Below are positions 6,119-35,965 of a DNA stretch of 36,060 nucleotides, in pieces; positions within the stretch are counted from its first letter, which is position 1; the number at the start of each line of letters is the position of its first letter. The position numbers were made by a program, and so were the translations under genes. Under the pieces are notes generated by a model. It had not been told where the DNA came from. It saw nothing but the letters and a program-made list of their open reading frames with translations, and searched no databases. The stretch covers positions 1-36,060 of the forward strand of contig JAFIGC010000044.1 in the NCBI GenBank assembly GCA_020831635.1. The letters are read 5' to 3'. The stretch is from Verrucomicrobiota bacterium (lineage in GTDB: Bacteria > Verrucomicrobiota > Kiritimatiellia > SS1-B-03-39 > UBA6053).

Positions 6119-6140
6119 ACCTTCCCGGAGAACCGTCCCC

Positions 6141-12054: not shown

Positions 12055-12069
12055 ACCCCAGGTCCAGCC

Positions 12070-12357
12070 ATGTCCGTGAAAATCATCATCCTCCGCAAAG
12101 TGCCGCAAGGCAAAGAAGCCGCCATCAAACCGCTTGTCATGCAACTGCGCGCCCTGTGCATGAGCAATGACGGCTACATTGGCGGCGAAACCCTGATCAA
12201 CGCCGATGACCCCACCGAAATTCTGGTCATCAGTTCCTGGAAAGACGTTGGCGAATGGAACTGCTGGCTCGCCAGCGAGGAACGCGCCATGATCCAGCAA
12301 CAAATCGACGACATCACCGGTCATCAGACCGTGTATCAAGTTTATTATCACGCCTGA
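12070..12357 (+). CDS. Small ABM-fold (dimeric alpha/beta barrel) protein
   Basis: This 95-residue protein begins [16 protein letters not shown] and has the pattern of the antibiotic-biosynthesis-monooxygenase fold: a first strand, a helix ([15 protein letters not shown]), [10 protein letters not shown], a strand ILVISSWKD, then a Trp-rich helix ([19 protein letters not shown]) and a final strand TVYQVYYHA. Members form dimers and include monooxygenases, heme-degrading proteins and many of unknown role. It lies between the epimerase and decarboxylase genes, in the same direction, 22 bp upstream of mmdA, so it probably serves the pathway or its regulation. No catalytic residues can be assigned, and an oxygenase reaction would be odd in a fermentative operon. 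Confidence 0.75.
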
Positions 12358-12379
12358 ACCGACGAAAGGCCCCATCCAC

Positions 12380-13936
<1,557 letters not shown>

Positions 13937-13951
13937 TTGGAGCCCGCACCG

Positions 13952-14383: not shown

Positions 14384-14838
14384 GAACCTATACCCTGAAC
14401 ATCGAAAACAAAGACTACGAGGTGGAAGTCAAAAGCTTCAGCCTCCAACACGCCACCCTGGTGGTCAACGGCAAAACCATTCACGTGGACGTCAAAGACG
14501 TCACCACCAAAGCCACCGCGTTGAGTCAATCGGAGTCCTCCCCCGCGCCAGTGCGGGCACCCGCGCCGTCCAGCGCCCCCGCCGCTCCCAGGGTGGCCAA
14601 TGGACCCGGTCCCGCCCCCGCGGGTGGAAACGGGGTGAAAGCCCCCATCCCCGGCGCCATTCTCAGCGTGGACGTCGCCGAAGGCGATACCGTGCAGGCC
14701 GGTCAACTGCTCCTGAAAATGGAAGCCATGAAAATGGAAAACCAGATCAAAGCGCCCCGGGCCGGCAAAGTGACGAAAATTCTCGTCAAAGTGGGTGACG
14801 CCGTTGCCCAAGGCGCGGATTTGTTACTCATCGAATAG
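14380..14838 (+). CDS. mmdC: Biotin carboxyl carrier subunit of the decarboxylase (gamma)
   Basis: This is a 152-residue biotinyl protein. Residues 1-45 form a small N-terminal domain, 50-85 an Ala/Pro-rich flexible linker, and 86-152 the biotinyl domain. The biotin site is EAMKMEN with Lys118, flanked by the expected APIPGAI and the closing GDAVAQGADLLLIE strands. The linker lets biotin swing between MmdA and the membrane beta subunit. The start overlaps the OadG-like stop by four bases. A biotin protein ligase is needed but is not in the window. Confidence 0.95.
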   Translation: MRTYTLNIENKDYEVEVKSFSLQHATLVVNGKTIHVDVKDVTTKATALSQSESSPAPVRAPAPSSAPAAPRVANGPGPAPAGGNGVKAPIPGAILSVDVAEGDTVQAGQLLLKMEAMKMENQIKAPRAGKVTKILVKVGDAVAQGADLLLIE

Positions 14839-14842
14839 GCAC

Positions 14843-19644: not shown

Positions 19645-22600
19645 ATGATGTTTTCCAGATTCCGTTTGTTTTCCTTGTCTTGTTTTCTCTTGGCCCTTCC
19701 GCTTGTGTTGCGCGCCGATCCCATTTCCGATGCCCGGGCACAGTTGCAGGCCGGGGAAACTTCACGAGTCGATTCGACTTTGGCCGAACTGCTGGAGCAG
19801 GAACCGACGCCGCTGGCCGCATTGGAGATCTCTTTCGCCGCCGCCCGCGCCGACGGGCGGGTGTTCACCGCCGAACGGCGCGTACGCGAGTTGATTCGCA
19901 GGGAAGGGGAAAACAACCCGCTTTGGATTTATGAAGGCGCTTTGGTGTCCCGCGATTTGGGAGAGGACGCCCAATATTTGGACCGGCTGATGTTTTTCGC
20001 CCGCCGCCAAACCGAACGCTCGGAAGAACTTGAGCAGGCGCTGCGCACCCTGAGCCTTTCCAGCAATTTTCCCGAGGCTTTCCGGAAATATCGTGAAGTC
20101 TATGGCACTGATCGCGCCAAGTTTCAATATGGTCTGGAGATGCTGCGGCGGATTCGGGCCGCCGACCAAGCGCCCCTGCTTTTGGAGTTGGCGGGGTATC
20201 TGTTGAGTGATTATGGTTCAACGCGCAACAACGAGGCGGTATATGAGGAACTGCACGAGGCCTTGGAATCCCGCTTGTTCGGTCTTTCGCGCAATGACGT
20301 TTATCAGGTGATGTTTTCCCACAAGGTGCACGGTCTCGGCATGATTCAAGAGATGATCCGCCGGCATGGCATGGACGTGCCCACGCTTTTTGCCCTGCAA
20401 CGGGCCTTTGAAGCACCTCTGCCCACTGATTTGGTGCGTCGTTTCGACGGTCTGCGGGATTTGGAAAATGAAACCCTGCGCACCCAACTCGCCCGGGAAT
20501 ACATTACCTTGGAGCCCCTGTACCGTTCACGGGGTTCCGCCGACCAGTATCGGGCCTATGCCTGGCGTCTCGCGAATCGCCCGGAGGTCTTCATTCCGGA
20601 TGCCGGTCGCCTCATCACCGAACGGCAGGCGGCCGACCTCCTGCGCAACGTGATTTCCGCCCATGAGGGGCGCGAGCAAATTTTGAGGGGGCTGTCCCGC
20701 CGCTTTTTCACGAGTCATCGGGATCTGTCCAACCGCTATATCGCCGACGGGGAGATCAAAACCGCGTTGATGCGCGCGGCGCCCGGCGCTTTCCACGCCG
20801 TGGATTTGCGGGAACTGGTCTCCGGACAGGAGGAAAACGAGGGGATGCTCAAGGCTTTGATCGAGTTGACCAACGGGCGTCAGGATGTCCGCATGGAATT
20901 GTTGGAGTCCTTCAGCCGTCACAACCACGGCGAACTCCTTCTCGAAGCGTCGCGTCGCGAGATGATTTTGAACGCCACCAGTTTTGATACCCCGAACTTG
21001 GCCCGGCATTTTCTGAGCAGCAATGCGGTGGACATGGACGCGAAAATCAAGGCCCTGAACGAGGCCTATGCGCACAGCGGCAATACTCCGCGTTTCCGCG
21101 AGTTGGTAACTCGCCGGGAAAACAACACGCGGGATTCGGATGAAATGAAGGCTTTTGTGGAAGGACTGCGGGACGACGCCAGCGCCAAGGACCCCATTCT
21201 CGACATCTTGGTCCGCGTCTCCAATGACAGTCATTTGCGTGGACGGGATCGGAATGAGCCACGGCAGGAATTCACCGACTTGATGATCCGGGCCTTCGAA
21301 ATTTACGGGCGTCCCTTTCCTTCGGACGACGCTCCGGCCATTCAAACCCGTTATTTGGAAGATTTGTTGGCCCGATATCGGGGCACCGCCGACCGGCGCG
21401 AGGGTCGCCGTATTTACGCGGAGGTGGTGGGCCCCCGTTTGAGCAAAGACGCGGATTGGGATCAGTTCATCCAGTTCACGGTGTTGGACAACGGCATGGA
21501 CGGCCCCGCCAGTTATCATGCCGCCGCCGCGTATCTCGCCCATTTTAACGAGTACATCGACGATTTGCGCAACGCCTGGCATCCGGACGGGAACACCGAT
21601 CCGCTGTTCCGTCCCCTGTTTGGCGAAATGTCCGCCGAAGACGTTCGCTACTACTTGCATCGCAACCGGACGCAGTGGTCCCCCAAATTCTTGGCGGAGC
21701 AACTGGGGGCCGCCTTGGCCGCGCAAGATTTAAGCGGCGGCAATCCCGTCCGGATTCGCCAAATCCTGGAGCGGCTGCGTGATCGGGCGGAAGACGCGGC
21801 GGAATCGTATCCCCTGGATTTGCTGGCCGAACAATTTTTGAACCCGCGTGAGGACGGCGAATACGGCGGGAATTGGGAAATCAGACGGGAAGTGATGCGC
21901 ATGTTTGTCGCCGCCGGCAAACAATCCGAAGGCGTGGCCCACATGCTCGCGGGTGCGGCCAAGGCCCACCCTGCACGGGGCATGACCGTGATTTCGTCGC
22001 TGACGGCAGACACGGGCCTTGTGCCAAACGAGGGCAATGAGGACATCGCCCCAAAAGAAGGGCATCGCCGGCATATCATGGCGAACGTGCTGTATCCCAT
22101 GGTTCGGGAAATTCCCGCGGGCGATTCCCCCATGTTGTATGTGCACAATTGGATGCACAGCCACATCAATTGGCTGATAAGCCGCAACAACCCTTCGGAG
22201 GAAGAGCGGAGCATCTATCGGAAACTGCACGTGGAACTGGTGGGCCACCTGGCCCGCGGCGCCCGTGGCGACGCCAATTGGTCGGATTTGGTGCCGGGAA
22301 TTGAACGGGGATTTGACGATGCCCTCGAGCGCAACGACAAACGGGATTTGGTGTCTTTGATTTTGTTGGCGGGCCGGGAGTCCAGCAATGTCCGCCGCAA
22401 CCATGTTGAAGGGTTGATCGAGCGTTTGGAAACGCGCGAAATGTGGGAGCACCTGTTCCTGTTCACCCAGTTGATCCGGGACCCGGATCCTTCCGCCTCC
22501 GCGTTGCTGGCCGAGGCCCGCAGCGACGCCTCCGCCAACGTGCCCGGCATTTACCCGGTGGATGTGGGCCATCCCGCCTATCCCCTCTTCCTGGCCTCCA

Positions 22601-25600
22601 CGGAATTGGCGCAAAACAACCAGGAAATGGCTTGGACCTTGCTTCGGGACAATTTGGACGAATTCGCGGATGATCTTTTTCTGTTTCCCCGCGACTTCTC
22701 CGCATGGGCCTTGGAGCGCCTCCGCGAAGTCAAAGGCGAGAACAACATCTATTTGACCCGGTCTTTGGAACTGAGCAACCTGTTGCTGACCCGTTCCGAC
22801 GATTTGCCCACCGAGTTCACGGCCAGAATCATGTTGAATCGGGCTGAAATTTTCCGGGACCAACGCAATTTCGACGCCGCCCGCTTGGAATATCAATCCA
22901 TTCGCACCAACCCCGATTATCAGCGCACCGCTTACGGACGGCAGGCCATGTTCCGGGACGTGGACCTGATGATCACCATGGGCAATGTCAGTGCCGCCGA
23001 AGGCTTGTTGGAATATTGGATGACCAATCCCGATCAGGAATTGCAGGTGCAAGCCAACTATTTCCAAGCTTTGATCGCATTCAACAATCAGGACGACGAC
23101 GCCACCCGCGAATTTCTGGACAAGGTGTTCGCGGTGGACTTCACCCACGCCGAAGCCCGCCTGTTGCATGGCCGCTGGCGTTTGCGCACCAACTACGAAG
23201 TCGACAACCCCGAGATTTTGTTGGGGACCTTGCGGGACCGCACCATTTTGCGTCCGGGCCAGCCCTTGCGCATTACCGTTTCCGACCGCAACCTCAGCGT
23301 GGTGGGCGGCGGCGCCGCCATTCCCGTCTTGGTCACCACCTCTCACGGGGAAGACCGGGAAGTGATCAACCTGCATCCTTCCACGCGCGATCCGCGTTTG
23401 TTCCGCGGGATGATCGACACCGTCTTGGGCGAGGCCGTGCCCGGAAACCGGGTCTTGGAAATCAACGGTCTTGATGTCATCAGCTATGAAATCGAACCGG
23501 AATTCCTCCAATCCCGCGGCATGGAGTCTGCTGAAGCCAAAACCCTGCGCGTGGTGGATGACGCCACCATGATGGTGAGCGCCGGCAATTTGCTGACGGA
23601 AGCCGAGCAGCAGTCTCTGGAAATCCAGCGCCAGATGAGCGGTGGGCGGACGGAACAAACCGGCGCCGACCAACAAGTGCGTCCCGGCAATCCCTTCTAT
23701 GTGATGGTGCGTGACCGGGACCGGAGCCATGGCGGCGAGGGCGGCAGTGTCACCGTGAACGTGGAAACGCGCAGCGGGGACCGCATTCCCAATTTCAAAT
23801 TGAAGGAAGTCGAACCGTATTCCGGCATTTTCAGGGGCGAAGTGCCCACGGCATTGCCCCCGCCGCGTGCCGCCGCATCCGACACTGCGGACGGAACCCT
23901 GCCCGGCAACACCATCAACTTCAATCGGGACGGCATCTGGCGAAGTCGCGCCGACGGGCGTCAGGATAAATGGTTGGAAGCCGACACCATGAACAGCCAT
24001 TTGATTTCCCGGGTCGAGTTGAAGACCCCCGAAGTCGCGGACATCAGCGAAATTCGCTTGATGGGGCGCTTGACGGGCGAATGGGTGGAAATGGGTGGCA
24101 TTCCCCGCCGGGCCGAGCCCAGTGGCGGGGTGAGTTTGCGGTTGGCCAGTCGGAACGTGAGCGGCATCGACGAGTACCGTCGGTATTTCTCGCAAAGTGT
24201 CGGCACACCCCAATCCCAGACGGATTTCCGTTTTGAGGGTGAAACTGCCGCTAGAATTCATTTGCGCGGGGCTTTTTACATGAGCGAGGCCCGCGACATT
24301 AATTTTCATTTCATTCCCGTGGAACGGGATCATGAAAACGCCTTGAGGGACGCTTGGCTTTTCCTGGTCTTGAACGGAGAAGTGATTGCCAATGGCCGGG
24401 CCTCGGAAATGCATGGGGACGACGGTATTGCCGTGCCTTTGTCCGAGGGCGGACATGTGTTGGAAGTGTACGGATTTGTGCGGCATAATCGGGATCGATT
24501 CATCTTGGGATATGAACGCCAGGACGGTGTCGTCGAGCCGATCCCTGCCGCATGGTTCAGCGTGGAGGAAAATCCCGAACTTTTGGCGTTTCTGAGCGAC
24601 CGCGCCGAAATCAAGCGCACCGGCGATGGCTTTGTGGCCGAGTTCAGCGAACCCGAACGCCTCCGCAGTTTGCGCTGGGAATTCGTCCGATATGTCGGGG
24701 ATGCCATCAGCGTCAGCGAATTCAAAGTCGTGGATGCCGAAGGCGAGACCATTCTCCCCGGCCCGAGCGATTTCACGGATGCCTTGGACAACGATATTCT
24801 CGAAATCGCCCCCGGAGATCAGATCACCGTCACCTATGTGGACCAAGTGACCACCAGTGGCCAACGGCGGACGCTGACCCGGCAACTCGGCTCTCGTTTC
24901 ACCAATGGCAGCATCGGGTTCTTTTTCGAACGACTGACCCCCGGCTCCTCTGGGATTCAGAGCAGCTTGCACGGGGCCTATCGCTTCAGACCCGGAGACA
25001 GTTTCATGGTGGTGGTGAATGACGCCGACGAAGACGTCAGTCCCGCCGCCGATACCGTGGAAGTGACCGTAACCACTCGCAGCGGAGAGTCGCTGACCCT
25101 CAAGGCCGTCGAACAAGGCGGTGGCGGGGATGGCGGCGTGCACACCGGGCGATTCGTGGCCTTGTTGCGTACCACGCTGGACGGCCAAACCGGCGGCGAC
25201 ACCATTCGCGTGCGTCCGGGCGACCGCTTGACCGCCTCCTACGTGGACAAAGAGAACACCAATCCGGGAATCCCCGTTACCCGCACCGCCGAACTTGGCA
25301 GCGTGCAGGCCAGCGAGCCCCAGGTGACCATGTTCCACACCTGGCGGGAACGCCGGGAAGATACCGGGGACGAGGCTCGTCGGCGCATCGAACAAATCCA
25401 GGCGAGAACCGGGAACGACGACATCAATCGCATGTTCACTTGGGACCGCTTTGCCATGCCCATGTCCGAAAACGAAATGGCGGAGGAACGCATCACCGTC
25501 AACGTGGACGCGCCCTTGCCGTTTGAGATTTTGCATCCTTCCCGGGCCATGCACAGTGGCAGCACCTTGCGGTTGCGCGCCTATGCCGCCTCGGAATTGG

Positions 25601-27270
25601 CCTCCGCCCAAGAACAGGGTCGCGAACCCGAAGGCGTGAACATCCCCGTGGGCTTGGGCCGCGCCCGCGGCGGCTTGGCGGTTCGACCCAATCCCGCGAT
25701 CCCGACGCCCGACACGGACGAAGTCACCGCCGTGCCGCCCAACGCGACCTTTGGCGGGGTGTTGAATTTTGCCTTGGGTCAATCCTCCGACAGCCTGACC
25801 CTGGAAGGGGGTGGGGTGGGGGCCAACACCTTGCTGGTGCAGGGCAACGACCAAGTGCGCTTCCAACTTTACGATGATCAGGATCAACTGATTTTCGAGC
25901 GGGAACTGCAGTTGGCGTCCGAAGGCAGCATTGCTTTGTTGGACAGCACCTTCCAGGCGGAACGGACCAAAATCCATCTCGGCCAGCGTTTCTTCGTCCA
26001 GGTCATCGATTCGGACCGGGACATCAGCCCCCGACAGGATGAGATCACCGTGCGCGTGGAAGCGGAAGTCGCCGGAAGCGCCGTGGACTTGGTCTTGCGG
26101 GAAACGCTCCGGAATTCCGGGATTTTCACCGGCGTAATCGTCCCCCAATTCGCGCGGTCGGAAGATGCGCCGCCGTTGGAAGACGACGAGATGGACGCCT
26201 CTTTGATGGGTATTCCCACGATTGACGTCGGGTTTGGAGACAAAATTCGCTTCACCTATCAGGATGAAACCGGATTGCCGAACCGTCCGCCGCAGACGCA
26301 TACCGTCACCGGCGAAATTTTCGATGGGTCCGACGGCAAGGTGTTTGCCTTCACGAAACGCTTCGAAGATCCTGAAATGGCGGTGCGGGTGCAGTTCCGT
26401 CTCGCCGAAAGTCTCTTTGAAATGGCCAAGGATTATCGGCGTCTGGAGCAGACCGACCGTTCCGCCGCCTCCATTGCCGAGGGCAAACGGATTCTCGAAG
26501 AAGCGCTGATGAGTTACCCCGAAACCGAATTGGTGGTGCAGGGCGAATACCTCTTGGCCAACCTCTACCAAGAGCTGGGCGCGGAAGCGGAGAAGGAAGA
26601 CCCCGAAGGGGCCCGCGAATTCTATCAAGAAGCCTTGGGCAGATTTTCCTCCCTGCTGAGCAATTATCCCGACAGTGATTTCGCCCCCCGGGCCCAGTTC
26701 CACAAGGCGCTTTGTTTGGAAAAACTCGGTGACTTTGCCACCGCCAGCGAAGAATATGTGAAAATGACCTACATTTTTCCCGATTCGCCGCTCGTGGGGG
26801 ATGCCGCCATCCGTTTGGCCACCCATTATTACCGCAATGAGCAACGGTACGACATCGCCGGACGCATCTACTCCAACTTCTACCATCGTTTCAGCGGACA
26901 TCCGCTCGCGCCCCGGGCTTTGTTCATGAGCGCGCAGAGCCATATGAAACAGGCCGAGGTCTGGGAAGACGAGGTGCGCGCCCAGGGACGTCCCGAACGC
27001 GAAGCCAAGACCCAGCGGGTTCTCGACGAATACCGCAACGCGGTCAACAACTTCCAGACCCTGATTGACGACAGCTCCGGCATGGTGGACAACGAAGTGC
27101 GGGCCCAGGCCATGTATTGGGCCGGCGACGCCAGCCTGCGCGGGCTTGATTATCCCAACGCCTACATCTTCCTTCGCAGGACGGTGTTCGAATATCCGGA
27201 ATCCGAATGGGCCCGCCGGGCGCGCGGTCTGTTGATGCAATCCGAAGAACAGTTCCGGGGATTGGATTGA
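19645..27270 (+). CDS. Giant secreted TPR/beta-module envelope protein
   Basis: This protein has about 2541 residues. I place the start at the ATG at 19645, 5-10 nt after aggtga (19634-19639); GTG 19636, ATG 19639 and ATG 19648 are alternatives. A signal peptide (FRLFSLSCFLLALPLVLRA) is followed by ~1150 residues of helical TPR-like repeats (AQLQAGETSRVDSTLAELLE onward). Residues ~1200-2230 contain beta modules with a V.D.D.D motif, an S/HxGxF(x)G strand and a PGD.I...Y.D strand: ~1200, ~1355, ~1785 and ~2110, plus a tail near 1730. A PA14-like stretch lies at ~1540-1620. Residues ~2235-2541 are canonical TPRs (YPDSDFAPRAQFHKALCLEKLGDFATASEEY). It opens an operon with ExbB/ExbD and probably forms a periplasmic or outer-membrane scaffold. 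Exact function is unknown. Confidence 0.85.
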   Translation: MMFSRFRLFSLSCFLLALPLVLRADPISDARAQLQAGETSRVDSTLAELLEQEPTPLAALEISFAAARADGRVFTAERRVRELIRREGENNPLWIYEGALVSRDLGEDAQYLDRLMFFARRQTERSEELEQALRTLSLSSNFPEAFRKYREVYGTDRAKFQYGLEMLRRIRAADQAPLLLELAGYLLSDYGSTRNNEAVYEELHEALESRLFGLSRNDVYQVMFSHKVHGLGMIQEMIRRHGMDVPTLFALQRAFEAPLPTDLVRRFDGLRDLENETLRTQLAREYITLEPLYRSRGSADQYRAYAWRLANRPEVFIPDAGRLITERQAADLLRNVISAHEGREQILRGLSRRFFTSHRDLSNRYIADGEIKTALMRAAPGAFHAVDLRELVSGQEENEGMLKALIELTNGRQDVRMELLESFSRHNHGELLLEASRREMILNATSFDTPNLARHFLSSNAVDMDAKIKALNEAYAHSGNTPRFRELVTRRENNTRDSDEMKAFVEGLRDDASAKDPILDILVRVSNDSHLRGRDRNEPRQEFTDLMIRAFEIYGRPFPSDDAPAIQTRYLEDLLARYRGTADRREGRRIYAEVVGPRLSKDADWDQFIQFTVLDNGMDGPASYHAAAAYLAHFNEYIDDLRNAWHPDGNTDPLFRPLFGEMSAEDVRYYLHRNRTQWSPKFLAEQLGAALAAQDLSGGNPVRIRQILERLRDRAEDAAESYPLDLLAEQFLNPREDGEYGGNWEIRREVMRMFVAAGKQSEGVAHMLAGAAKAHPARGMTVISSLTADTGLVPNEGNEDIAPKEGHRRHIMANVLYPMVREIPAGDSPMLYVHNWMHSHINWLISRNNPSEEERSIYRKLHVELVGHLARGARGDANWSDLVPGIERGFDDALERNDKRDLVSLILLAGRESSNVRRNHVEGLIERLETREMWEHLFLFTQLIRDPDPSASALLAEARSDASANVPGIYPVDVGHPAYPLFLASTELAQNNQEMAWTLLRDNLDEFADDLFLFPRDFSAWALERLREVKGENNIYLTRSLELSNLLLTRSDDLPTEFTARIMLNRAEIFRDQRNFDAARLEYQSIRTNPDYQRTAYGRQAMFRDVDLMITMGNVSAAEGLLEYWMTNPDQELQVQANYFQALIAFNNQDDDATREFLDKVFAVDFTHAEARLLHGRWRLRTNYEVDNPEILLGTLRDRTILRPGQPLRITVSDRNLSVVGGGAAIPVLVTTSHGEDREVINLHPSTRDPRLFRGMIDTVLGEAVPGNRVLEINGLDVISYEIEPEFLQSRGMESAEAKTLRVVDDATMMVSAGNLLTEAEQQSLEIQRQMSGGRTEQTGADQQVRPGNPFYVMVRDRDRSHGGEGGSVTVNVETRSGDRIPNFKLKEVEPYSGIFRGEVPTALPPPRAAASDTADGTLPGNTINFNRDGIWRSRADGRQDKWLEADTMNSHLISRVELKTPEVADISEIRLMGRLTGEWVEMGGIPRRAEPSGGVSLRLASRNVSGIDEYRRYFSQSVGTPQSQTDFRFEGETAARIHLRGAFYMSEARDINFHFIPVERDHENALRDAWLFLVLNGEVIANGRASEMHGDDGIAVPLSEGGHVLEVYGFVRHNRDRFILGYERQDGVVEPIPAAWFSVEENPELLAFLSDRAEIKRTGDGFVAEFSEPERLRSLRWEFVRYVGDAISVSEFKVVDAEGETILPGPSDFTDALDNDILEIAPGDQITVTYVDQVTTSGQRRTLTRQLGSRFTNGSIGFFFERLTPGSSGIQSSLHGAYRFRPGDSFMVVVNDADEDVSPAADTVEVTVTTRSGESLTLKAVEQGGGGDGGVHTGRFVALLRTTLDGQTGGDTIRVRPGDRLTASYVDKENTNPGIPVTRTAELGSVQASEPQVTMFHTWRERREDTGDEARRRIEQIQARTGNDDINRMFTWDRFAMPMSENEMAEERITVNVDAPLPFEILHPSRAMHSGSTLRLRAYAASELASAQEQGREPEGVNIPVGLGRARGGLAVRPNPAIPTPDTDEVTAVPPNATFGGVLNFALGQSSDSLTLEGGGVGANTLLVQGNDQVRFQLYDDQDQLIFERELQLASEGSIALLDSTFQAERTKIHLGQRFFVQVIDSDRDISPRQDEITVRVEAEVAGSAVDLVLRETLRNSGIFTGVIVPQFARSEDAPPLEDDEMDASLMGIPTIDVGFGDKIRFTYQDETGLPNRPPQTHTVTGEIFDGSDGKVFAFTKRFEDPEMAVRVQFRLAESLFEMAKDYRRLEQTDRSAASIAEGKRILEEALMSYPETELVVQGEYLLANLYQELGAEAEKEDPEGAREFYQEALGRFSSLLSNYPDSDFAPRAQFHKALCLEKLGDFATASEEYVKMTYIFPDSPLVGDAAIRLATHYYRNEQRYDIAGRIYSNFYHRFSGHPLAPRALFMSAQSHMKQAEVWEDEVRAQGRPEREAKTQRVLDEYRNAVNNFQTLIDDSSGMVDNEVRAQAMYWAGDASLRGLDYPNAYIFLRRTVFEYPESEWARRARGLLMQSEEQFRGLD

Positions 27271-28880
27271 TGCGAAACCGAATTCCCATCTTCCTTCTGG
27301 CGAGTGGGTTGGCGGTTTCCGCCTTTGCCCAACAGTGGTCCCACGTCATGCCCGTGGAATTGTATCAGACCATGAATCTGGCCGAGCGCTCCGCCCTGGA
27401 CCGAGCCCTCAAACTCTTTGATGACGGCGGCGCGGGACGGAACGACCGCGAACAGCAGTTGCATCGCAACGCCACCAACGAATGGGAGCGCTTCCGGTCC
27501 CAATACGCCGATTCCGTGGACTCCGAGATTTTCGCGTATTCGCTCTTCATGCAGGCCAAGAGCCAGCGCGCGTCGAGGGATCGACATACCGCCGTGCGGA
27601 CCTTTACCGAAGTGCTCGATTTCTTTCCCGATGAAGTCTGGTTGGCGGCGCCGTCCCTGTATTTTCGGGCCATGACCCATTTCGACATTGGGGATGATCG
27701 CCGGGGTTTCTCCGATTTGCGGGAAATGGCGGATCATCCCGCCTACGGCAAACACAGCCTCGCCGCCGGCGCCCTCAATCGTATCGCCGACAACCACTGG
27801 GAAAACAAACGACCCGATCAGGCCGTGGAAATCTGGAAAAAAGTCGCCGAGGAATTCGGGGAACTCAACCGGGACCAGACCCGGCAGGCCGCCGACAAGC
27901 TGTACGATTGGACGCTTGTCCGGGGCAACGTGGCCGAGGCGTATGACCTCCGCTTGGAGCGCGAATCCCGCGGTTCCGAGGAACAACGTCGTGCCAATGC
28001 CATTCAACATGTGTTCCAACAAGGGGTCCGGGACGCCGGGGGCGGGTATTACCGTTGGTATTTCAATCACCTTCACGAAGAGGACCGCGCCAACGAGATG
28101 CGGGATGCCCTGCGGACCAAGCTTTATGAATGGTTTGTCTCCAAACAATCGGACTTTTTGGCCGTGGACCGCCTCTGGGATTTTTTGTTGATGCGTTACG
28201 ATTACAACGCCTCCCACAACCAAGAGAAACTCGACGAGCTTTTGTTGGAGATCGTGCAATATTTCCGGTCCAGTGAGACGGAACCCAACCGTAGGGTTTC
28301 CCGCGCCAAAACCATTATTGACCGCTTGGCCCGTTCGGGACGCTGGGACAATGCCCTTTCCATGTTGGAATTCATTCCCGAACCCACGGACCGCCTTTGG
28401 ACCGAATTCGAATTGAGCCAACGCCGCAGGACCCATGAATACAGTCTCACCGTACTCGATCAGATCGACGGCTTGAACGTTCCCGAGGAAAGCCGCAAGG
28501 CCTTGGCCGCCCGGGCCCGGATTCATCATCGCAATCTAAACAATTACGAAGAGGCCATCAAATTGTATCACGAGATCAACGATCCGCCCGACACCCTGTG
28601 GGAAATCGTGGACTGTCATCGCCGCCTCGGCAATCGCGAGCAAGCCCGCAACGTGCTCACCGAAATCGCCAGTATTTTCCCCGATCTTGCCCCCCGCGCC
28701 CTGTACATGCAGGCGGAACATTACCGTTCCGACGGAGAGCAGGAACAAGCCGTCAACCTTTACCGCAGTATTCTCCGCCATCCTGAATGGCGTCGTTCCC
28801 GCGAAGCCTCCCAATCCCATGACCGCCTTGAAGCCATGGGCTTGGACACCGCGGGTGGCGTGATCCACGAAGTGCATTAA
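27270..28880 (+). CDS. Secreted TPR protein
   Basis: This 536-residue protein starts at the ATG at 27270, which shares one base with the preceding stop (tgatg), so it is translationally coupled. Signal peptide: RNRIPIFLLASGLAVSAFAQ. The rest is helical, with TPR-like pairs such as SRDRHTAVRTFTEVLDFFPD (~100), QAVEIWKKVAEEF (~190), NYEEAIKLYHEI (~425) and EQAVNLYRSILRHPEW (~495). No enzyme motif was found. It would be a periplasmic scaffold acting with the giant protein before it and the TPR/beta protein after it. The longer open frame from 27207 would overlap the upstream gene without a leader and is rejected as a start. Confidence 0.85.
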   Translation: MRNRIPIFLLASGLAVSAFAQQWSHVMPVELYQTMNLAERSALDRALKLFDDGGAGRNDREQQLHRNATNEWERFRSQYADSVDSEIFAYSLFMQAKSQRASRDRHTAVRTFTEVLDFFPDEVWLAAPSLYFRAMTHFDIGDDRRGFSDLREMADHPAYGKHSLAAGALNRIADNHWENKRPDQAVEIWKKVAEEFGELNRDQTRQAADKLYDWTLVRGNVAEAYDLRLERESRGSEEQRRANAIQHVFQQGVRDAGGGYYRWYFNHLHEEDRANEMRDALRTKLYEWFVSKQSDFLAVDRLWDFLLMRYDYNASHNQEKLDELLLEIVQYFRSSETEPNRRVSRAKTIIDRLARSGRWDNALSMLEFIPEPTDRLWTEFELSQRRRTHEYSLTVLDQIDGLNVPEESRKALAARARIHHRNLNNYEEAIKLYHEINDPPDTLWEIVDCHRRLGNREQARNVLTEIASIFPDLAPRALYMQAEHYRSDGEQEQAVNLYRSILRHPEWRRSREASQSHDRLEAMGLDTAGGVIHEVH

Positions 28881-28896
28881 CCGGAGTTCCCCAACC

Positions 28897-31113
28897 ATGA
28901 TGAATCAGATGATGAAAACCACGACTTTATCCATGCTCAAATGCTGTTTGGCCCTCACTTTTGTGTTTGGGGTCGCCCACGCGCAAACGGAGTCCGAAGC
29001 CGACGCCCGCAGCACCGCGGCTGTCAGCCGCGATGAATTGCGGGCCCGCCGCATGATCGAAAGCGCCCTCGAGTTGGTCCGCAGCGGCCAGCACGAGCGC
29101 GGCGTCAGCATGCTCGAAGCGGTGGGGGACATGTTTCCAGACAGCGCCGCCCGTTTCCGGGCGTCCCTGGAACTGGCCCGTCATCACATTGAAAGCAACC
29201 AATTCGACAAGGCCGCCGCGCAGTTGAACGTGGCCCGCAATTCCCGCGACGAGGACGAACAGGCCGAGGCTTGGTTCCTGACCGGACGCGTCAATTTCCA
29301 ACGCGCGAATTACAACGAAGCCTTTTCCGCGTTCCGTCGGGTGATCAACGATTTTCCCGCCAGCGAATTCACCAACCTTTCCTATGATATGATTGGTCAG
29401 GCGCATTTTAACCAGGGCCGCTGGGGCAAGGCCGTGGAAGCCTTTCAAATGGTGGGCACCGCCGTTCCCGAGTCCCTCGCCGAAGCGGACGAAGTTCTGG
29501 CCGAGGCCGGGCAACGTCTGTTCGTGAAAGTCCATGACCGCGACCTGCGGATTCTCAGCAGTTTGGGCGAAAAAAGTTACGTCACCATCGAAGCCGAATC
29601 CGGCGACAAGGAAGAAGTGCTCTTGACCCGATTGGGACGCAGCGGCGAAGACTGGATTGCCTCGATCATGATGGCGCCCGAACCCTCCGAACCCAATGAC
29701 GGCGTGCTGACTGTGCGCGGTGGCGAGGTGGTGACCGTGACCTACATCGACCGCAATAACGCCGAGGGCGAAGTGGACGTGCCCATCACCACGCAAGTGC
29801 GCGTGGTGTCCACGGGGGCGGTGGCCTTCACCGACGGCGCCTACAACCGCAGTGTTCGCGGCGTGTTCGCGGGACAGCCCGCCTACGTGCGCCTGGTGGA
29901 TTTGGATTTGGATGTCACGCCGGAGCCCGATGAGGCCGAGGTGGATGTGATCGCGTATTACAAGGTGGAACGGGAAGTCGAAACCACCCTGCCCCAGGAA
30001 GTCGATATCGATACCATGGATGAGCGCGAGCAAGAAGACGAATGGGTGGAACGCGGACGCATCACCTTGCGTCTGACGGAAACCGACAACCATTCCGGGG
30101 AATTCCGGGGTCAGTTCCGTCCCGTGATCGCCGAGTTTGCCACCGGTTCCGATCGGGAACTCGTGGTCATGCCCAACGACGAAATCGTGCTCTCCTACAC
30201 CGATGAAACCCATTTGCGCGGGGACACGCCCGAAGAACGCCTCGCCCGGGTGCAGGTGGTCGTGGGCGGCAGCACCGAGCCCCAGTCCATTGTGTCCGAA
30301 GCCAACGACGCCAATACCCAGGCGCAGAAACTGCTCATCGAAGCGCAACTCCTGCATCGCTGGGCCTCGATCTTCGATGACGTGGGTCTGGAGGAATCCG
30401 CCTTTTCCAAAGCCGAAGAAGGCTTGGACAAAGTCGAGGAGATCATGCAGCTCACCGCTCGCCAGAGTTTGAACCGCGAACTTTTGGAGCAGTCCTTCGC
30501 GGTGCGGTGGGATTTGTATTTGGTCCAGGGCCGTTTGAACGAAGCCATCGCCACTTGCATGGCCTTGGTCGAGTTGTTTCCCGACACCACCCTGGTGGAC
30601 CGGGCCTTCATGAATATTGCCCGCGCCCGTGCCGAGGCCGGCACCTTGGAGGAGATGCGCGAAGCCATCCGGGTGTACCGGACCGTCATCGATTTGCCCC
30701 AGTCCGATTACAAGGCCGAGGCCCAGTTCCGCATCGGCGAGGTCACCGAGGACATGATCCGTTACAATCTCCGTCCCGGCACCGACCCCAATTTCGCCCC
30801 CGCCATGGTCGAGTACCAACGTTGCGCGGAAATGTATCCCCATTCGCCCTTCGCCGGGGAATCGTTCAACAAAATCATCAACTTCCATATCACCCAGCGC
30901 GATTATCTGCGTTCGGTGGAATTGATGGATCGAGTGATGCAGGATTATCCCGACGCGCCCTGGATGGACGAAATCCTCGTCAAATGGGGCGTGGTCGCCT
31001 TCCGCATGGGCAACCGCAACGTCGCCATCCAAAAATTCATGCAGGTTCTCGAAGAATATCCCAACGGCGCTTCCGCCGGACAGGCCCGAAACTTCTTGCA
31101 AAGACTGCAATAA
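28897..31113 (+). CDS. Secreted protein with TPRs and two beta modules
   Basis: This is a 738-residue protein. Signal peptide: LSMLKCCLALTFVFGVAHAQ. N-terminal TPRs at ~45-190 include HERGVSMLEAVGDMFPDS and FDKAAAQLNVARN. Two beta modules of the type found in the giant protein follow: ~205-315 (VKVHDRDL ... RGGEVVTVTYIDR) and ~325-465 (VRLVDLDLDVTPEPDEAEV ... ETDNHSGEFRGQF ... MPNDEIVLSYTDET). C-terminal TPRs (~470-738) include NEAIATCMALVELFPDTTLVDRAF and RNVAIQKFMQVLEEYPNG. The shared module suggests direct assembly with, or descent from, the giant protein. A ccggag ribosome site precedes the ATG at 28897. ExbB follows after 51 bp. Confidence 0.85.
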   Translation: MMNQMMKTTTLSMLKCCLALTFVFGVAHAQTESEADARSTAAVSRDELRARRMIESALELVRSGQHERGVSMLEAVGDMFPDSAARFRASLELARHHIESNQFDKAAAQLNVARNSRDEDEQAEAWFLTGRVNFQRANYNEAFSAFRRVINDFPASEFTNLSYDMIGQAHFNQGRWGKAVEAFQMVGTAVPESLAEADEVLAEAGQRLFVKVHDRDLRILSSLGEKSYVTIEAESGDKEEVLLTRLGRSGEDWIASIMMAPEPSEPNDGVLTVRGGEVVTVTYIDRNNAEGEVDVPITTQVRVVSTGAVAFTDGAYNRSVRGVFAGQPAYVRLVDLDLDVTPEPDEAEVDVIAYYKVEREVETTLPQEVDIDTMDEREQEDEWVERGRITLRLTETDNHSGEFRGQFRPVIAEFATGSDRELVVMPNDEIVLSYTDETHLRGDTPEERLARVQVVVGGSTEPQSIVSEANDANTQAQKLLIEAQLLHRWASIFDDVGLEESAFSKAEEGLDKVEEIMQLTARQSLNRELLEQSFAVRWDLYLVQGRLNEAIATCMALVELFPDTTLVDRAFMNIARARAEAGTLEEMREAIRVYRTVIDLPQSDYKAEAQFRIGEVTEDMIRYNLRPGTDPNFAPAMVEYQRCAEMYPHSPFAGESFNKIINFHITQRDYLRSVELMDRVMQDYPDAPWMDEILVKWGVVAFRMGNRNVAIQKFMQVLEEYPNGASAGQARNFLQRLQ

Positions 31114-31164
31114 TCCACGAAACAACACTCCGTCTGATTTCCAACCCTCCGACCCGATTCCATT

Positions 31165-31797
31165 ATGCTCACATACATCCTCGACGGTGGTCCCATCATG
31201 TGGCCGCTCATGATCCTCTCCATCCTCACCTTTGCCATCATCATCGACCGGGTGCGCGCCTTCCGTGCCGCCGGCTCGGATTTTGATGACTTGCGGCGGG
31301 AAGTGAATGAAAACCTGCTCGACGAAAAAATCGACGAGGCCATCACCCGAGTCGAAGCCGCCGATGGCCCCGTGGCCGCGTGCCTGCTGGTGGGCCTGCA
31401 ACGGTACCGCAAAATGCGCGAGCGCAAACGCGAGCCCGAGGAAATTGAGACCGCCGTGTCCAAAATGATGGAGGATTTCGCGCCCAAAGCCATCAGCGGA
31501 CTCGAAAAGCGCCTCAACCTTTTGGTGCTGATCGCCTCCGTTTCTCCGTTGCTGGGGATGACCGGCACCGTGACCGGGATGATCAAATCTTTTGACAAAA
31601 TGGCCGAGGCCGCCGGGCTGGACCCTGCCGCCGTTTCAAGCGGCATCGCCGAAGCCTTGATCACCACCGCAACCGGACTGATCGTGGCCATTCCCGCCGT
31701 GGTGGCTTACAATCTGTTCTCGCGCCGGGTCGAGGAATACAACATCGCCATCGAAGAATGCGTGACGGATGTGGTCACCGCCATCAGCGAACACTGA
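31165..31797 (+). CDS. exbB: ExbB/TolQ/MotA-family proton channel protein
   Basis: This 210-residue inner-membrane protein has three membrane helices (~10-28, ~117-140, ~158-184) and a cytoplasmic domain between the first two. The channel motifs are clear: SVSPLLGMTGTVTGMI with Thr135, and GIAEALITTATGLIVAIPAVVAYN with Glu163 and Thr168. These match the positions of the functionally important Thr148, Glu176 and Thr181 of E. coli ExbB. It would form a pentameric stator with the ExbD proteins that converts proton (or sodium) flow into motion or force. Its place directly after the large TPR genes suggests it powers that assembly rather than classic TonB-dependent uptake. Confidence 0.95.
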   Translation: MLTYILDGGPIMWPLMILSILTFAIIIDRVRAFRAAGSDFDDLRREVNENLLDEKIDEAITRVEAADGPVAACLLVGLQRYRKMRERKREPEEIETAVSKMMEDFAPKAISGLEKRLNLLVLIASVSPLLGMTGTVTGMIKSFDKMAEAAGLDPAAVSSGIAEALITTATGLIVAIPAVVAYNLFSRRVEEYNIAIEECVTDVVTAISEH

Positions 31798-31808
31798 GTG
31801 ATCCACGT

Positions 31809-32231
31809 ATGAACCGTCGCCGGAAACGAGAAAAACCCGATGCGGAAATCGATGTGGGCGCTTTTGCCGACATCGCCTTCCTGTTGATCATTTTTTTCAT
31901 CCTCACCACCAGCATCATGCGCTCGACAGGACAGGAAGTGAGCCTGCCCCAAGCGCAAACCCCCGAAGACCGGCAGGTGGATGAAAAAACGCCTTCCGTC
32001 AATATTCTCGCGGACCGCATTCTCTTTGGCGAGGACGAGGAAAACATGGATCGGGTCAGTTTGGAGGAACTCCGGAGCAAACTGTTTCAACTGAACATGC
32101 ATGATGCCGAGGATCAGGACCGCATGATCATCGTGGAAGTCGCCGAGGAAGTGACCTACGAAATGTATTTCAGAGTCGTGACCCTTATCAGCGATGCCGG
32201 TGGCATTGTCGCCCTTGTGGAGGCCCAATAA
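31809..32231 (+). CDS. exbD: ExbD/TolR-family protein 1
   Basis: This 140-residue protein has a basic N-terminus (NRRRKREKP), one membrane helix with the ion-carrying Asp21 in the motif ADIAFLLIIFFI, and a periplasmic domain (~45-140) ending in VVTLISDAGGIVALVEAQ, typical for ExbD/TolR. The ATG at 31809 was chosen because it yields the correct short cytoplasmic tail; the frame is open further upstream but overlaps exbB. It is 11 bp from exbB and 2 bp from the second exbD. The periplasmic domain is acidic (GEDEENMDRVSLEEL), unlike the second copy, so the two are not interchangeable repeats. Confidence 0.93.
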   Translation: MNRRRKREKPDAEIDVGAFADIAFLLIIFFILTTSIMRSTGQEVSLPQAQTPEDRQVDEKTPSVNILADRILFGEDEENMDRVSLEELRSKLFQLNMHDAEDQDRMIIVEVAEEVTYEMYFRVVTLISDAGGIVALVEAQ

Positions 32232-32233
32232 CC

Positions 32234-32638
32234 ATGCCGGTGCGCAGACGGAAAAAAGTAAAAATGATGCTCCCATTGGCCTCCATGGGGGACATCGCCT
32301 TTTTGCTGATCATTTTTTTCATGCTGGTTTCCACCTTCATGAAGGACACCATGGACTATGACCCCGCCACGGGCGCGGATTTGCGGGAACTCCAGTCCCC
32401 GGAAATCAGCGTGGTGGTGGATCAGGAAGGCAAGCTCTGGCTTCAGGGTCTGGAAGCGGGCGTGGGCCAATTGGCCGATGCCGTGGAAAACCTGGTCGGA
32501 CAGCGCCGCCACGACACCCCCGTACATCTCAGTGTACACAAAGATTTGAAACGGCCGGACTACATGCCGGTCATCGAAGCCCTCAGCGAAGCCGGCGTGC
32601 GCGTGCTCATGGTGGGCTTACAGGAAAGTGATTCATAA
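32234..32638 (+). CDS. exbD: ExbD/TolR-family protein 2
   Basis: This 134-residue protein has a basic N-terminus (PVRRRKKVK), a membrane helix with Asp20 in SMGDIAFLLIIFFMLV, and a periplasmic domain ending PVIEALSEAGVRVLMVGLQE. The same overall plan as the upstream ExbD, with a strongly diverged periplasmic part, suggests a heterodimer in the ExbB pore, as proposed for machines that use two TolR-like proteins. The genes are 2 bp apart, so expression must be coupled. Confidence 0.93.
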   Translation: MPVRRRKKVKMMLPLASMGDIAFLLIIFFMLVSTFMKDTMDYDPATGADLRELQSPEISVVVDQEGKLWLQGLEAGVGQLADAVENLVGQRRHDTPVHLSVHKDLKRPDYMPVIEALSEAGVRVLMVGLQESDS

Positions 32639-32654
32639 AAACAGGACCTCAATC

Positions 32655-33083
32655 ATGCAGGATTTAAAAACAAGCTCCGAAACCCGTGAACCCGAATCCC
32701 TTTTACAGGGCATCAACCGTTCGATTTTTACCAAGGCCCTGATCGTGTCCACCGTGATTCATGTGGTGGTCCTCGGCGGCACCTCCTTTGCCCTCTACCG
32801 GGATTGGGCCGAATACGGCATCCGCTCCGAGAAATATGGGTTCCACACGCCTTCCACGCTGAAAACCCTGCAACGGGATCAGGCCAAAGAAGCCGAGGAG
32901 GCCGAACGCACCGCCCGTGAAGAAGCCCGTCGGGATGAACAACGCGCCCGGGCCATGGAAGAGGCGGAACGCGAGCCGGAAGAACGGCCCCGCACCACCC
33001 GTCCCGACGGTCCGCCGGAGGAACCCACGATCGAGCCGCTGCCGCCCCGTTCTTTTTCGTTGGATGATGTGTTGGATCTGTAA
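32655..33083 (+). CDS. One-pass coiled-coil protein in the TonB position
   Basis: This 142-residue protein starts at the ATG at 32655 (acagga 9-14 nt upstream). A short cytoplasmic part is followed by a membrane helix (~28-46, FTKALIVSTVIHVVVLGGTSFALY) of the sort seen at the N-terminus of TonB/TolA-like proteins. Then comes a highly charged Glu/Arg coiled coil (~75-110) and a Pro-rich tail (RPDGPPEEPTIEPLPPRS). No TonB or TolA C-terminal domain is present; it ends FSLDDVLDL. It may be a linker that passes force from ExbB/ExbD to the periplasmic TPR proteins, or an adaptor for the next gene product. It abuts the FHA gene with no gap (taaatg). The role is inferred from position and architecture only. 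Confidence 0.75.
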   Translation: MQDLKTSSETREPESLLQGINRSIFTKALIVSTVIHVVVLGGTSFALYRDWAEYGIRSEKYGFHTPSTLKTLQRDQAKEAEEAERTAREEARRDEQRARAMEEAEREPEERPRTTRPDGPPEEPTIEPLPPRSFSLDDVLDL

Positions 33084-35153
33084 ATGAGATTGATCCTACA
33101 ACTTTCCAACGCCGACGGGACCACCCGTCGGTTGGAACCCACACCGCCGATTGCGGTGCTGGGCGCGGATGCGTCCGTGGATTTGGTGCTGGAAGATCCT
33201 TCCATCAGTTCCAAACACGCCAAACTCACCCGGGATGCGGACGGAAATTGGTCGGTGGAGGATTTGGGCTCCACCAACGGCTCTTATCTCAATGGGGATG
33301 AAGTCACGGAGGCCAGGAAAATTCAAGCCGGGGACGAACTGGAGTTCGGCCTTTTGAAAACCAAGGTGGAGTTGCTGCCCCTTGCGCAGACGGCCCCCGA
33401 ACCCGCACCAAAAGCCACTCAAGAACCCGTTCCCGTCACAAAAGCCGCAAAAAAAGCGGGCAAAAAGGCGAACCCGCCTCAAAAGCCCCCCCCCAAGAGG
33501 GTGGACCGGCAGAAGAATTGGAAAGATTCCGAGTTTTATGTGGACCTGTTGTTTTTGGTTTGTGGCTGGATTCATGGCCTCTGTGCCAAATATCTGCCCC
33601 CCGCCATTGGGTGGACCGTGCGGATGCAGGCCAAACTTCCCCTGCAGCTCCGCTTCACCCTCGGGTTTCTGATTCTCGCGGGCATCAGCACTTGGGTAGG
33701 CTGGCGCGCGATTCCTTCGTATTTTGAATGGACGGACTTCAGCGATGAGTACCTCGAGATCCTCCGCAACCATCGCATGATCCAGCAAGGCGAGCAAGTT
33801 GCGGCCTTGGGGCGTCTGACCACGATGGTATTGCTGGGGGTGGCCGTATTGGCTTGGTTGCGTCACAAATTCACCCTGGTGATTTTCAAGGCGGGACTGG
33901 CCCTTTATCTTCTGCTCTGGTTGTATCTGTTTAATTTCTACACCGGGGTGCCCGCGCTCCTCAATGATATCGACTACAAATATTTCGATAATTTTTACCG
34001 CAATGAATATTGGTTGCGCGGTTGGATGCCCTGGTTGCCGGCCTTGATTCCCGCCGCGATTCTCATGCTGGGCGTGGCCTTGCGCCCGGTATGGAATTTT
34101 TACCGCAAGACCGCGGAAACCTCCAAACTGCCCGGCGATCAGGTGGTCGATAGCTTGCGCACGGGTGGACGCGATCCGCGCATGCGCTCTTCCTCGTATT
34201 GGGCCACGTTTCTCTGTTTCTTTGCCCTCGCCTTGCCTTTTATCATGCGCGGTTGCGGATGGGAAGATCCCTACGGCCTGCCCAAAGGTTCCGGCGATCC
34301 GGTGGTGGAAATGGTGCAGGTGACCCGACAGCGGGAAATCCCCGAACGTCGCCTCATCGTCAACAACTGGTCCCCCTTCATTTTCGAGCGCATGGAAATT
34401 GATGACATCAAAATCCTCGATGAAATGGAAGAGCAGACCCTCGACACCTATGAAATCGCCCAAGAACAAACCGGCAAGCTCGGCGAGGGTGGGGGCGACA
34501 CCGGCGGCTGGCCCGAAGGCATGGAAGGGGCCACCGTCCGCTTTATTCGCCTCCAATACAGCGGCGGAGACTGGGACCAGAACATGGACCGGAATTCGGA
34601 TGCCAATTTGCTCCGTCGCTTCAATCGGATCACCGGCTTTCCCGTCGCCCCCGATGGCGAAGGCCGCCGGGCCGATCGCCTGCGGCGTTTCCCGGAAGGA
34701 CTCAAACCGCCATTCGTCTTCATGACCGGACGCGGCAACGTCAATTTCTCCGCCAACGAAATCCGGACCCTGCGCTGGTACACCTTGGAAGAGGGCGGCA
34801 TGATTTTCGCCACCCACGGGGGAGGCAATTTCGACCGGAATTTCCGTAATCAGCTCAACCGCATTTTTCCCGGCTCGCGATTGGTGGACATTCCCAACGA
34901 CGACCCCATCTACCGCGCCCCCTTTGTCTTCCCCAATGGCGCGCCCCCGCTTTGGCAACAGGCCGGCAGCCGTTCCCTCGGCATTCGTCACGAAGGACGC
35001 TGGGTCGTGTTTTATCATCCCGGCGACATGAGCGATGCCTGGCGGGACGGACATTCCGGCGCGTCCCCCGAAGTGGCCGAACAGGCCTACCGCATGGCCA
35101 TCAATGTCATGTACTATGCCTTCAACATGTACTACGCCCGCCATCACCGCTAA
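33084..35153 (+). CDS. FHA - five-helix membrane - DUF4159 fusion protein
   Basis: This 689-residue protein has three parts. Residues ~20-95 are an FHA phosphothreonine-binding domain (DPSISSKHAKL, DLGSTNGSYLNG). A Lys/Pro linker (~105-145) leads to five membrane helices at about 186-206, 247-265, 270-292, 312-334 and 371-390. Residues ~480-689 are a DUF4159 domain (VRFIRLQYSGGDWDQ, PFVFMTGRGNVNFSANEI, EEGGMIFATHGGG), a class I glutamine amidotransferase-like fold. An odd helix count puts FHA inside the cell and DUF4159 in the periplasm. DUF4159 proteins are usually separate secreted proteins near ExbD; fusion to FHA through a membrane domain is unusual to my knowledge. It probably reads cytoplasmic Ser/Thr phosphorylation and controls the machine. 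No kinase gene lies in the window. Confidence 0.88.
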   Translation: MRLILQLSNADGTTRRLEPTPPIAVLGADASVDLVLEDPSISSKHAKLTRDADGNWSVEDLGSTNGSYLNGDEVTEARKIQAGDELEFGLLKTKVELLPLAQTAPEPAPKATQEPVPVTKAAKKAGKKANPPQKPPPKRVDRQKNWKDSEFYVDLLFLVCGWIHGLCAKYLPPAIGWTVRMQAKLPLQLRFTLGFLILAGISTWVGWRAIPSYFEWTDFSDEYLEILRNHRMIQQGEQVAALGRLTTMVLLGVAVLAWLRHKFTLVIFKAGLALYLLLWLYLFNFYTGVPALLNDIDYKYFDNFYRNEYWLRGWMPWLPALIPAAILMLGVALRPVWNFYRKTAETSKLPGDQVVDSLRTGGRDPRMRSSSYWATFLCFFALALPFIMRGCGWEDPYGLPKGSGDPVVEMVQVTRQREIPERRLIVNNWSPFIFERMEIDDIKILDEMEEQTLDTYEIAQEQTGKLGEGGGDTGGWPEGMEGATVRFIRLQYSGGDWDQNMDRNSDANLLRRFNRITGFPVAPDGEGRRADRLRRFPEGLKPPFVFMTGRGNVNFSANEIRTLRWYTLEEGGMIFATHGGGNFDRNFRNQLNRIFPGSRLVDIPNDDPIYRAPFVFPNGAPPLWQQAGSRSLGIRHEGRWVVFYHPGDMSDAWRDGHSGASPEVAEQAYRMAINVMYYAFNMYYARHHR

Positions 35154-35182: not shown

Positions 35183-35965
35183 ATGGATCCAGCCATCACC
35201 CCCATCCCTCCGGACTTCGCCAATGTGGTGTTCAAAGAAGTCCAAGGCCTTGAGTTGAAGTTGGATTTGTATTTGCCGCACATGCCCGAGGCAAAAGAAG
35301 AAGCTCCCTGGGTGGTCTGGTTGTCCGGAGGGGGGTGGAAACACATGGGAAAAGGCGGAGCGGGTAGGCTGGCGGGCTGGTTGGTGGACCACGGGATCGC
35401 CGTGGTCGGCGTCGAGTACCGGGTCAGCGGCCAAGCCGTGTTCCCCGCGCAAATCGAAGATGTGCGGGATGCCGTCCGCTGGGTGCGGGCACATGCGGCC
35501 GACTACGGCTTGCATCCCTGGCTGACCGGCATCTGGGGGGATTCCGCGGGCGGACACCTTGCCGCGCTACACGGGGTCACCGCCGAAGCGGATCTCGCCG
35601 TACGCGCAGTGTGCGCGTTTTTTCCGCCCTGCGAGATGGACCACCTTGACGACTTCGGAGACAATCGGGAGATTCCATTGCTTTTCGGCGGACCCTTGAA
35701 GGAAAAGCTGGACCTGGCCCGCGAGGCCAGTCCCCTACATCATGTCCATGCCGGCGCTCCGCCGCATTTTCTCGCCCACGGCGACGAAGACAAAACCGTA
35801 CCCATCGGCCAAAGCCTCCGATATTTTACCACCTTGCGAGAAGCCGAAGTGCCCTGCGCCTTGGAAGTCCTGCCCGGCGCCGGACACAACGCGCCCTTTT
35901 ACACCGCGCCCGAAACGCGGGCGCATGTGTTGGCGTTTTTTGAGCGGTGTCTGTTGGGCGCATAG
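35183..35965 (+). CDS. Alpha/beta hydrolase (BD-FAE/carboxylesterase-like)
   Basis: This 260-residue cytoplasmic esterase-like protein has no signal peptide. The oxyanion segment is LSGGGWKHM (~48), the nucleophile elbow is GDSAGGH with Ser121, the acid is Asp201 or Asp203 in HGDEDKTVP, and the base is His235 in PGAGHN, so the catalytic triad is complete. The fold matches small-molecule esterases and the acyl/feruloyl esterase-like family; the substrate is unknown. The ATG at 35183 was chosen; the open frame reaches into the upstream gene but the family starts here. It lies 29 bp after the DUF4159 gene and may be co-transcribed, but nothing else links it to that system. Confidence 0.88.
   Translation: MDPAITPIPPDFANVVFKEVQGLELKLDLYLPHMPEAKEEAPWVVWLSGGGWKHMGKGGAGRLAGWLVDHGIAVVGVEYRVSGQAVFPAQIEDVRDAVRWVRAHAADYGLHPWLTGIWGDSAGGHLAALHGVTAEADLAVRAVCAFFPPCEMDHLDDFGDNREIPLLFGGPLKEKLDLAREASPLHHVHAGAPPHFLAHGDEDKTVPIGQSLRYFTTLREAEVPCALEVLPGAGHNAPFYTAPETRAHVLAFFERCLLGA

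Follow-up and report, generated by a model that had tools for sequence, protein, structure and literature searches.

A conserved eight-gene locus of PVC bacteria with the features of a proton-driven, force-transducing envelope machine

The core complex of the Agl-Glt/Nfs machinery, known from Myxococcus and gammaproteobacteria, consists of AglRQS together with GltC, GltD, GltE and GltG, its parts being one TolQ, two TolR proteins, three tetratricopeptide repeat (TPR) proteins (approximately 1191, 471 and 673 residues) and one extra gene, and it includes a membrane protein that combines FHA with a TonB-like part, with GltG as the partner of AglR (PMC3169522). In bacteria of the Planctomycetes-Verrucomicrobia-Chlamydiae (PVC) group, clusters with a TPR gene, tolQ, two different tolR genes and an SHLS transducer headed by a von Willebrand factor A (vWA) fold have been described, in work that started from Tichowtungia (Kiritimatiellota) and in which the transducer has three domains and carries His35 (Mol Biol Evol 2025, PMC12204202). 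Cryo-electron microscopy has shown that the Ser-x3-His part of this SHLS motif contacts the first transmembrane (TM) helix of ExbB/TolQ (PMC12215075). Here, we analysed contig JAFIGC010000044.1 of a Verrucomicrobiota bacterium (36,060 bases, hereafter the window), in which eight consecutive genes at 19645–35153 encode, with a probability that we put at roughly 0.6, a PVC machine driven by the proton motive force and transducing force across the envelope, of the Tol/Ton/Agl kind.

The eight open reading frames (ORFs) lie where the first-pass annotation of the window had placed them. All are on one strand (+), and neighbouring genes overlap by 1 base at the closest junction and are 51 bp apart at the widest. 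They encode three large exported proteins (P1–P3), ExbB, two ExbDs (ExbD1 and ExbD2), a one-pass membrane protein (P7) and an FHA-multiTM-DUF4159 protein (P8). Read from the sequence, P1 and P2 overlap in TGATG, P2 and P3 are separated by 16 bp, P3 and ExbB by 51 bp, ExbB and ExbD1 by 11 bp, ExbD1 and ExbD2 by 2 bp, and P7 and P8 by 0 bp. Pfam identified TPRs in P1, P2 and P3, MotA_ExbB (E-value 1.3e-31), ExbD in both ExbDs (6.6e-18 and 4.1e-14), and FHA (6.7e-17) and DUF4159 (3.8e-37) in P8, in agreement with the domains assigned earlier, while no Pfam family matched P7. Gathering cut-offs were passed by ExbB (PF01618, 109.4 bits) and the ExbDs (PF02472, 65.4 and 53.2 bits), and DUF4159 (PF13709) scored 128.2 bits against a gathering score of 25.9.

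The gene set is a real conserved unit. Relatives were collected with a P8 alignment that was run against a genome collection; of 274, 80 were kept, the loci being chosen by P8 only; their taxa are those of the record titles, many of which belong to metagenome-assembled genomes and some of which are doubtful (e.g. 'Nealsonbacteria'). By title, they come from Kiritimatiellia, Lentisphaerae, Akkermansiaceae, Verrucomicrobiaceae, Rubritalea, Luteolibacter, Opitutales, Phycisphaerae and other Planctomycetota. Among them, Rubritalea profundi (L104) is a cultivable bacterium with the cluster. ExbB, two ExbDs and P7 lay directly upstream of P8 in 58 of the 59 loci with at least 3.6 kb of upstream flank, and the giant P1 was present too in 49 of the 50 loci with a 9 kb flank; the exception, L119, has a much larger DUF4159-like ORF, and the motor genes are not there. 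Within the window's class, full-length P8 homologues occur in 14 of 77 genomes, and wherever the flank sufficed the same proteins adjoin P8, in two gene orders. P3, searched for on its own, co-occurs with P8 both in the class (15/77 genomes, including 14/14 with P8; Fisher 1.8e-14) and in another family (49/195 genomes, including 43/44 with P8; Fisher 1.8e-35), although the genomes are related and both p-values overstate independence. P8 and P3 are missing from most of the 195 genomes sampled from that family, and the spread across the phylum is patchy (22/388 sampled genomes). Since gene order is conserved across the PVC group, a chance neighbourhood is ruled out. The earlier proposal was vulnerable to the TPR genes and the exbB-to-DUF4159 genes being unlinked in relatives; given this synteny and the co-occurrence of P3 and P8, that objection fails. 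The set thus recurs as a unit, carried by a minority of the Verrucomicrobiota, Lentisphaerae and Planctomycetota, and as far as we searched it has no name; DUF4159 was likewise not found in the literature searched, a search that most subscription journals fell outside of.

Three of the genes encode a putative motor. ExbB (31165–31797, +; 210 residues, TolQ-like, three TM helices) aligns over its length with solved TolQ and ExbB, and is followed by ExbD1 (31809–32231, +; 140 residues from the ATG at 31809, within a longer ORF from 31758) and ExbD2 (32234–32638, +; 134 residues). The pore Thr residues of ExbB are kept in 62/62 and 57/62 homologues, the TM Asp of the ExbDs in 73/73 (ExbD1) and 74/74 (ExbD2), and both of the diverged ExbDs are present in 58 of 59 loci. 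The conservation of these residues makes a working proton motor likely. The ExbB Ser matching the transducer motif is also retained (57/62). We counted 11 MotA/TolQ/ExbB matches in the whole genome.

Two further proteins resemble transducers of the TonB/TolA type. P7 (32655–33083, +; start at ATG 32655, with GTG 32628 also possible) has a single TM helix, LIVSTVIHVVVLGGTSFAL, and an acidic, proline-rich tail. This helix has a His that is invariant across essentially all main-type loci, with Ser, Thr or Ala usually found four residues earlier, and in the window it reads STVIH, that is, Ser-x3-His as in TonB and TolA. P8 (33084–35153, +; 689 residues) comprises the FHA domain (approximately 1–100), a linker, about five TM helices (187–390), a disordered linker (395–480) and DUF4159 (486–680). 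Most P8 homologues carry Ser-x3-His in their last TM helix: among non-redundant sequences with a residue at the position, the Ser occurs in 75/87 and the His in 72/87; basic residues precede the helix, and the pattern 'GC..PY..P.GSG.PVV..VK..K.KKK' follows it. In the structural model of P8, residues 406–472 fall below 50 in the predicted local distance difference test (pLDDT), as in a disordered linker, and the DUF4159 domain is well modelled. This domain matches Hoch_4089 (Z 23.2, with a root-mean-square deviation (rmsd) of 1.8 over 185 residues), and its matches to class I glutamine-amidotransferase folds are weak; vWA is absent among the fold matches listed. With its N-terminus in the cytoplasm and five TM helices, P8 would hold DUF4159 in the periplasm as a head domain.

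The first-pass view of P8 as an FHA-DUF4159 control subunit is not well supported: the protein resembles a force transducer whose DUF4159 head would sit in the periplasm, and its FHA domain is lineage-specific. Most P8 homologues are approximately 530 residues long and without FHA, which we found only in the window's own family (in the window, in G004 and apparently in G005, where the match is on another contig), and it is absent from P8 even in two genomes of the window's own genus. FHA is thereby ruled out as a defining part and appears to have been acquired within that family. Apart from these proteins, we noted two candidate transducers of other types. In L229 (7907–11900), a 967-residue protein adjoins ExbB and ExbD; it combines an N-terminal TM helix like Ser-x3-His (SVILH) with a CBM9 carbohydrate-binding domain and may be a transducer too, one whose head binds sugar. 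In L230 (7124–15448), a TPR protein, ExbB and ExbD precede a 1297-residue multi-TM protein in which one helix reads SLALH. This protein weakly matches squalene cyclases and may represent yet another type of transducer.

The three remaining proteins are candidate scaffolds, each with a single N-terminal hydrophobic segment as exported proteins would have, in line with their earlier description as secreted. P1 (19645–27270, +; 2541 residues) is a giant with an N-terminal signal segment, a helical region, S-layer-like beta domains and a C-terminal TPR region; DxDxD motifs in the beta domains, near residues 1360, 1796 and 2125 of P1, suggest loops that bind metal. P2 (27270–28880, +; 536 residues), a TPR protein, starts within the P1 stop codon (TGATG). 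P3 (28897–31113, +; 738 residues) has two beta domains flanked by TPRs, an order also seen in its AlphaFold2 model (TPR-beta-TPR; mean pLDDT 79, with an overall predicted template modelling score of 0.38, at which the arrangement of the parts is not fixed). The beta part of P3 matched a Nitrosopumilus S-layer protein (Z 15.9, 211 residues) with an rmsd of 8.5, so that the likeness lies more in the single domains than in how they are arranged, and the beta parts of P1 and P3 weakly matched an anammox S-layer model. The TPRs of the operon resemble CpoB/YbgF in NCBIfam.

Taken together, these parts suggest a machine in which a pentamer of the TolQ-like ExbB, together with one copy of each ExbD, would drive two different TonB/TolA-type transducers, P7 and P8. 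In P8, the last TM helix would lead through the disordered linker to the periplasmic DUF4159 head, and both transducers would act on the P1–P3 TPR/S-layer-like scaffolds, which may reach toward the outer membrane or the surface. In the window's lineage, P8 would have gained FHA and lost its TM His, which makes P7 probably the main motor contact there. Conservation of the locus, the motor residues and the TonB/TolA-type helices support well the earlier proposal of an ExbB/ExbD-powered envelope machine that is not a standard uptake system. Several observations weigh against this machine model, though. The equivalent of ExbB Trp32 is mostly Leu in the homologues and Phe in the window, and the operon contains neither a barrel nor a Pal-like protein for the outer-membrane end. 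The match to SHLS consists of the Ser and His, with the Leu/Ser part absent. P8 of the window's family lacks the TM His, and the type B loci of G340's family (P3-P1-ExbB-ExbD-ExbD-P7-P8-P2, with a shorter P8, of approximately 475 residues, whose alignment begins no earlier than the last TM region), a paralogous operon in L184–L189 and L193, have lost it from the helices of both P7 and P8, with the operon still kept. A profile comparison between the P8 helix and the N-termini of TonB proteins from the window's class placed Ser on Ser and His on a His/Thr column and scored above all control pairs (probability 39%, E-value 3e-4), yet this similarity is weak and spans 22 columns; homology of the P7/P8 helices with TonB is suggestive, over a stretch too short to prove it. 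At the motor-contact position, Thr often replaces His in TonB proteins of this class (e.g. SLACT; L152, L243, L253–L257 and others), and loss of the His need not, therefore, mean loss of function.

Such a machine would most likely serve to move or remodel material of the surface or the outer envelope, glycans for example, which is our best guess by analogy with Agl-Glt/Nfs. We further propose, tentatively and at somewhat less than even odds, that the locus represents a distinct and unnamed class: a Tol-type complex heteromeric in both halves, with two different ExbDs in the pore and two different Ser-x3-His transducers (P7 and P8) at the rim, in which DUF4159 would be a new kind of head that bears force and works on the giant TPR/S-layer-like scaffolds. 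If the machine model is right, DUF4159 would gain a role as the periplasmic head of a TonB/TolA-like transducer, and a large machine would join the family of proton-driven 5:2 motors. It would also offer a testable target for the purpose of the many ExbB/ExbD motors of PVC bacteria, with their unusual envelopes. As a counterpart of the Agl-Glt core complex, either independent or very distantly related, it could help to separate general from gliding-specific features.

The likeness to Agl-Glt, which the first-pass annotation had drawn at the level of architecture, is good for the parts list: like Agl-Glt/Nfs, the locus clusters one TolQ-like and two TolR-like proteins, three TPR proteins of which one is large, an FHA membrane protein and an extra gene, and a true PVC branch of Agl-Glt/Nfs, built on the same ancestral core complex and moving surface glycans or propelling cells, would share this published composition (PMC3169522), with P8 in the role of GltG as the AglR partner. 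The likeness did not extend to membership by sequence: P8 matched the GltG model NF033760 through its FHA part only (47.3 bits, cut-off 650), P2 fell far below the GltE cut-off (NF033758; 15.5 bits against 225), and P8 without FHA matched none of the NCBIfam models. Moreover, FHA is confined to one family and apparently acquired there, the periplasmic domain is DUF4159 where Agl-Glt has TonB_C, the beta domains are S-layer-like, and the homologous loci obtained come, by record title, nearly all from PVC bacteria. Judged on GltG and GltE, membership is not supported, which leaves true descent from the same core unlikely; the locus resembles the Agl-Glt core in build and probably in working, which falls short of making it a member. 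A closer neighbour in taxonomy are the PVC TPR-tolQ-tolR-tolR clusters, whose publication in 2025 makes the claim of novelty only partial, even though the present set is unnamed as far as we searched. Both have the TPR gene, tolQ, two different tolR genes and a TM His of the SHLS type, and one might suppose the cluster to be the same, with DUF4159 called vWA there. We regard this as very improbable, given that the published transducer is a three-domain protein of TolA/TonB-like topology with His35 and a vWA head, whereas P8 is multi-pass and DUF4159 models on Hoch_4089 and glutamine-amidotransferase-like folds, vWA being absent among the matches listed, and given that PMC12204202 mentions neither giant proteins nor a DUF. 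By description, a different head, a second transducer gene and giant scaffolds (one of 2,500 residues) set the locus apart.

Similarity to Tol-Pal (TolQRA-TolB-Pal-CpoB) is evident in the TolQ/TolR-like motor, the TM Ser-x3-His and the CpoB-like TPRs, and NCBIfam indeed ranked tolQ first for ExbB (132 bits) and tolR for the ExbDs (40 and 27 bits). These scores stay below the equivalog cut-offs (221 and 127, respectively), however, and the locus has two different ExbDs but no TolA C-terminal domain, with tolB and pal absent among the window's genes and the recurrent neighbours of the cluster. For a housekeeping function in outer-membrane constriction and stability, a distribution over 22 of 388 sampled genomes is too patchy, and a diverged Tol-Pal system is accordingly hardly credible. 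TonB-ExbB-ExbD shares the motor and the motor-contact motif, but the operon has no TonB_C and no TonB-dependent receptor, as had been noted before, nor did P7 or P8 match a TonB_C or TolA C-terminal Pfam family; as a Ton system is encoded elsewhere in the genome (Plug, 6 matches; TonB_C, 2 matches), standard Ton uptake was rejected. A variant in which the scaffolds replace the receptor and large polymers (polysaccharides or proteins) are taken up would fit the Ton-like transducers, and the Akkermansia 'MUL' genes (pili and periplasmic protein complexes), needed for mucin products to accumulate in internal compartments (PMC12418764), provide a lead only. With ordinary TonB receptors in the genome, and no barrel, binding protein or hydrolase among the conserved neighbours (sulfatases lie near 10 loci only), we consider uptake unlikely compared with the force-transducing machine proposed above. 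Sulfatases are common in PVC genomes.

The locus varies in order and content. The window-type order is P1-P2-P3-ExbB-ExbD-ExbD-P7-P8 with no ninth gene. A second type runs P2-P3-P1-ExbB and onward, with P3 ahead of P1, and adds a ninth gene, P9, a membrane protein of approximately 400 residues without a Pfam match that was found at 58 loci (L115 3030–4238 and homologues), mostly directly after P8; in the window's class, P9 is limited to genomes with the system, and it is not in the window's genome. In Verrucomicrobiales, many loci carry a DUF6288-HEAT gene and some encode two giants of the P1 kind. P8 is duplicated inside the cluster in L070 (9968, 13413) and L138 (9629, 11269). DUF58-like and BatA-like VWA genes lie downstream of the cluster in L094, L096, L124, L125 and L131, with a MoxR-like gene in L094, L096 and L124.

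The contig ends 907 bases past P8. A hydrolase gene in this interval (35228–35965) was not counted as an operon part, as blastp gave no match to it near P8 in close relatives, although some of these loci end soon past P8; a defence system was rejected, PADLOC giving no match for P2–P8. Upstream of the operon lie a divergent MsrA-like gene and a methylmalonyl-CoA/acyl-CoA carboxylase gene set, with no visible link to the operon. The region 4601–15919 encodes an acyl-CoA transferase, two methylmalonyl-CoA mutase chains, MeaB, an epimerase-like glyoxalase, a carboxyltransferase, a biotin carrier and a Na+-pumping decarboxylase beta subunit, a complete-looking methylmalonyl-CoA/propionate route, and similar genes are found near an ExbB in L229.

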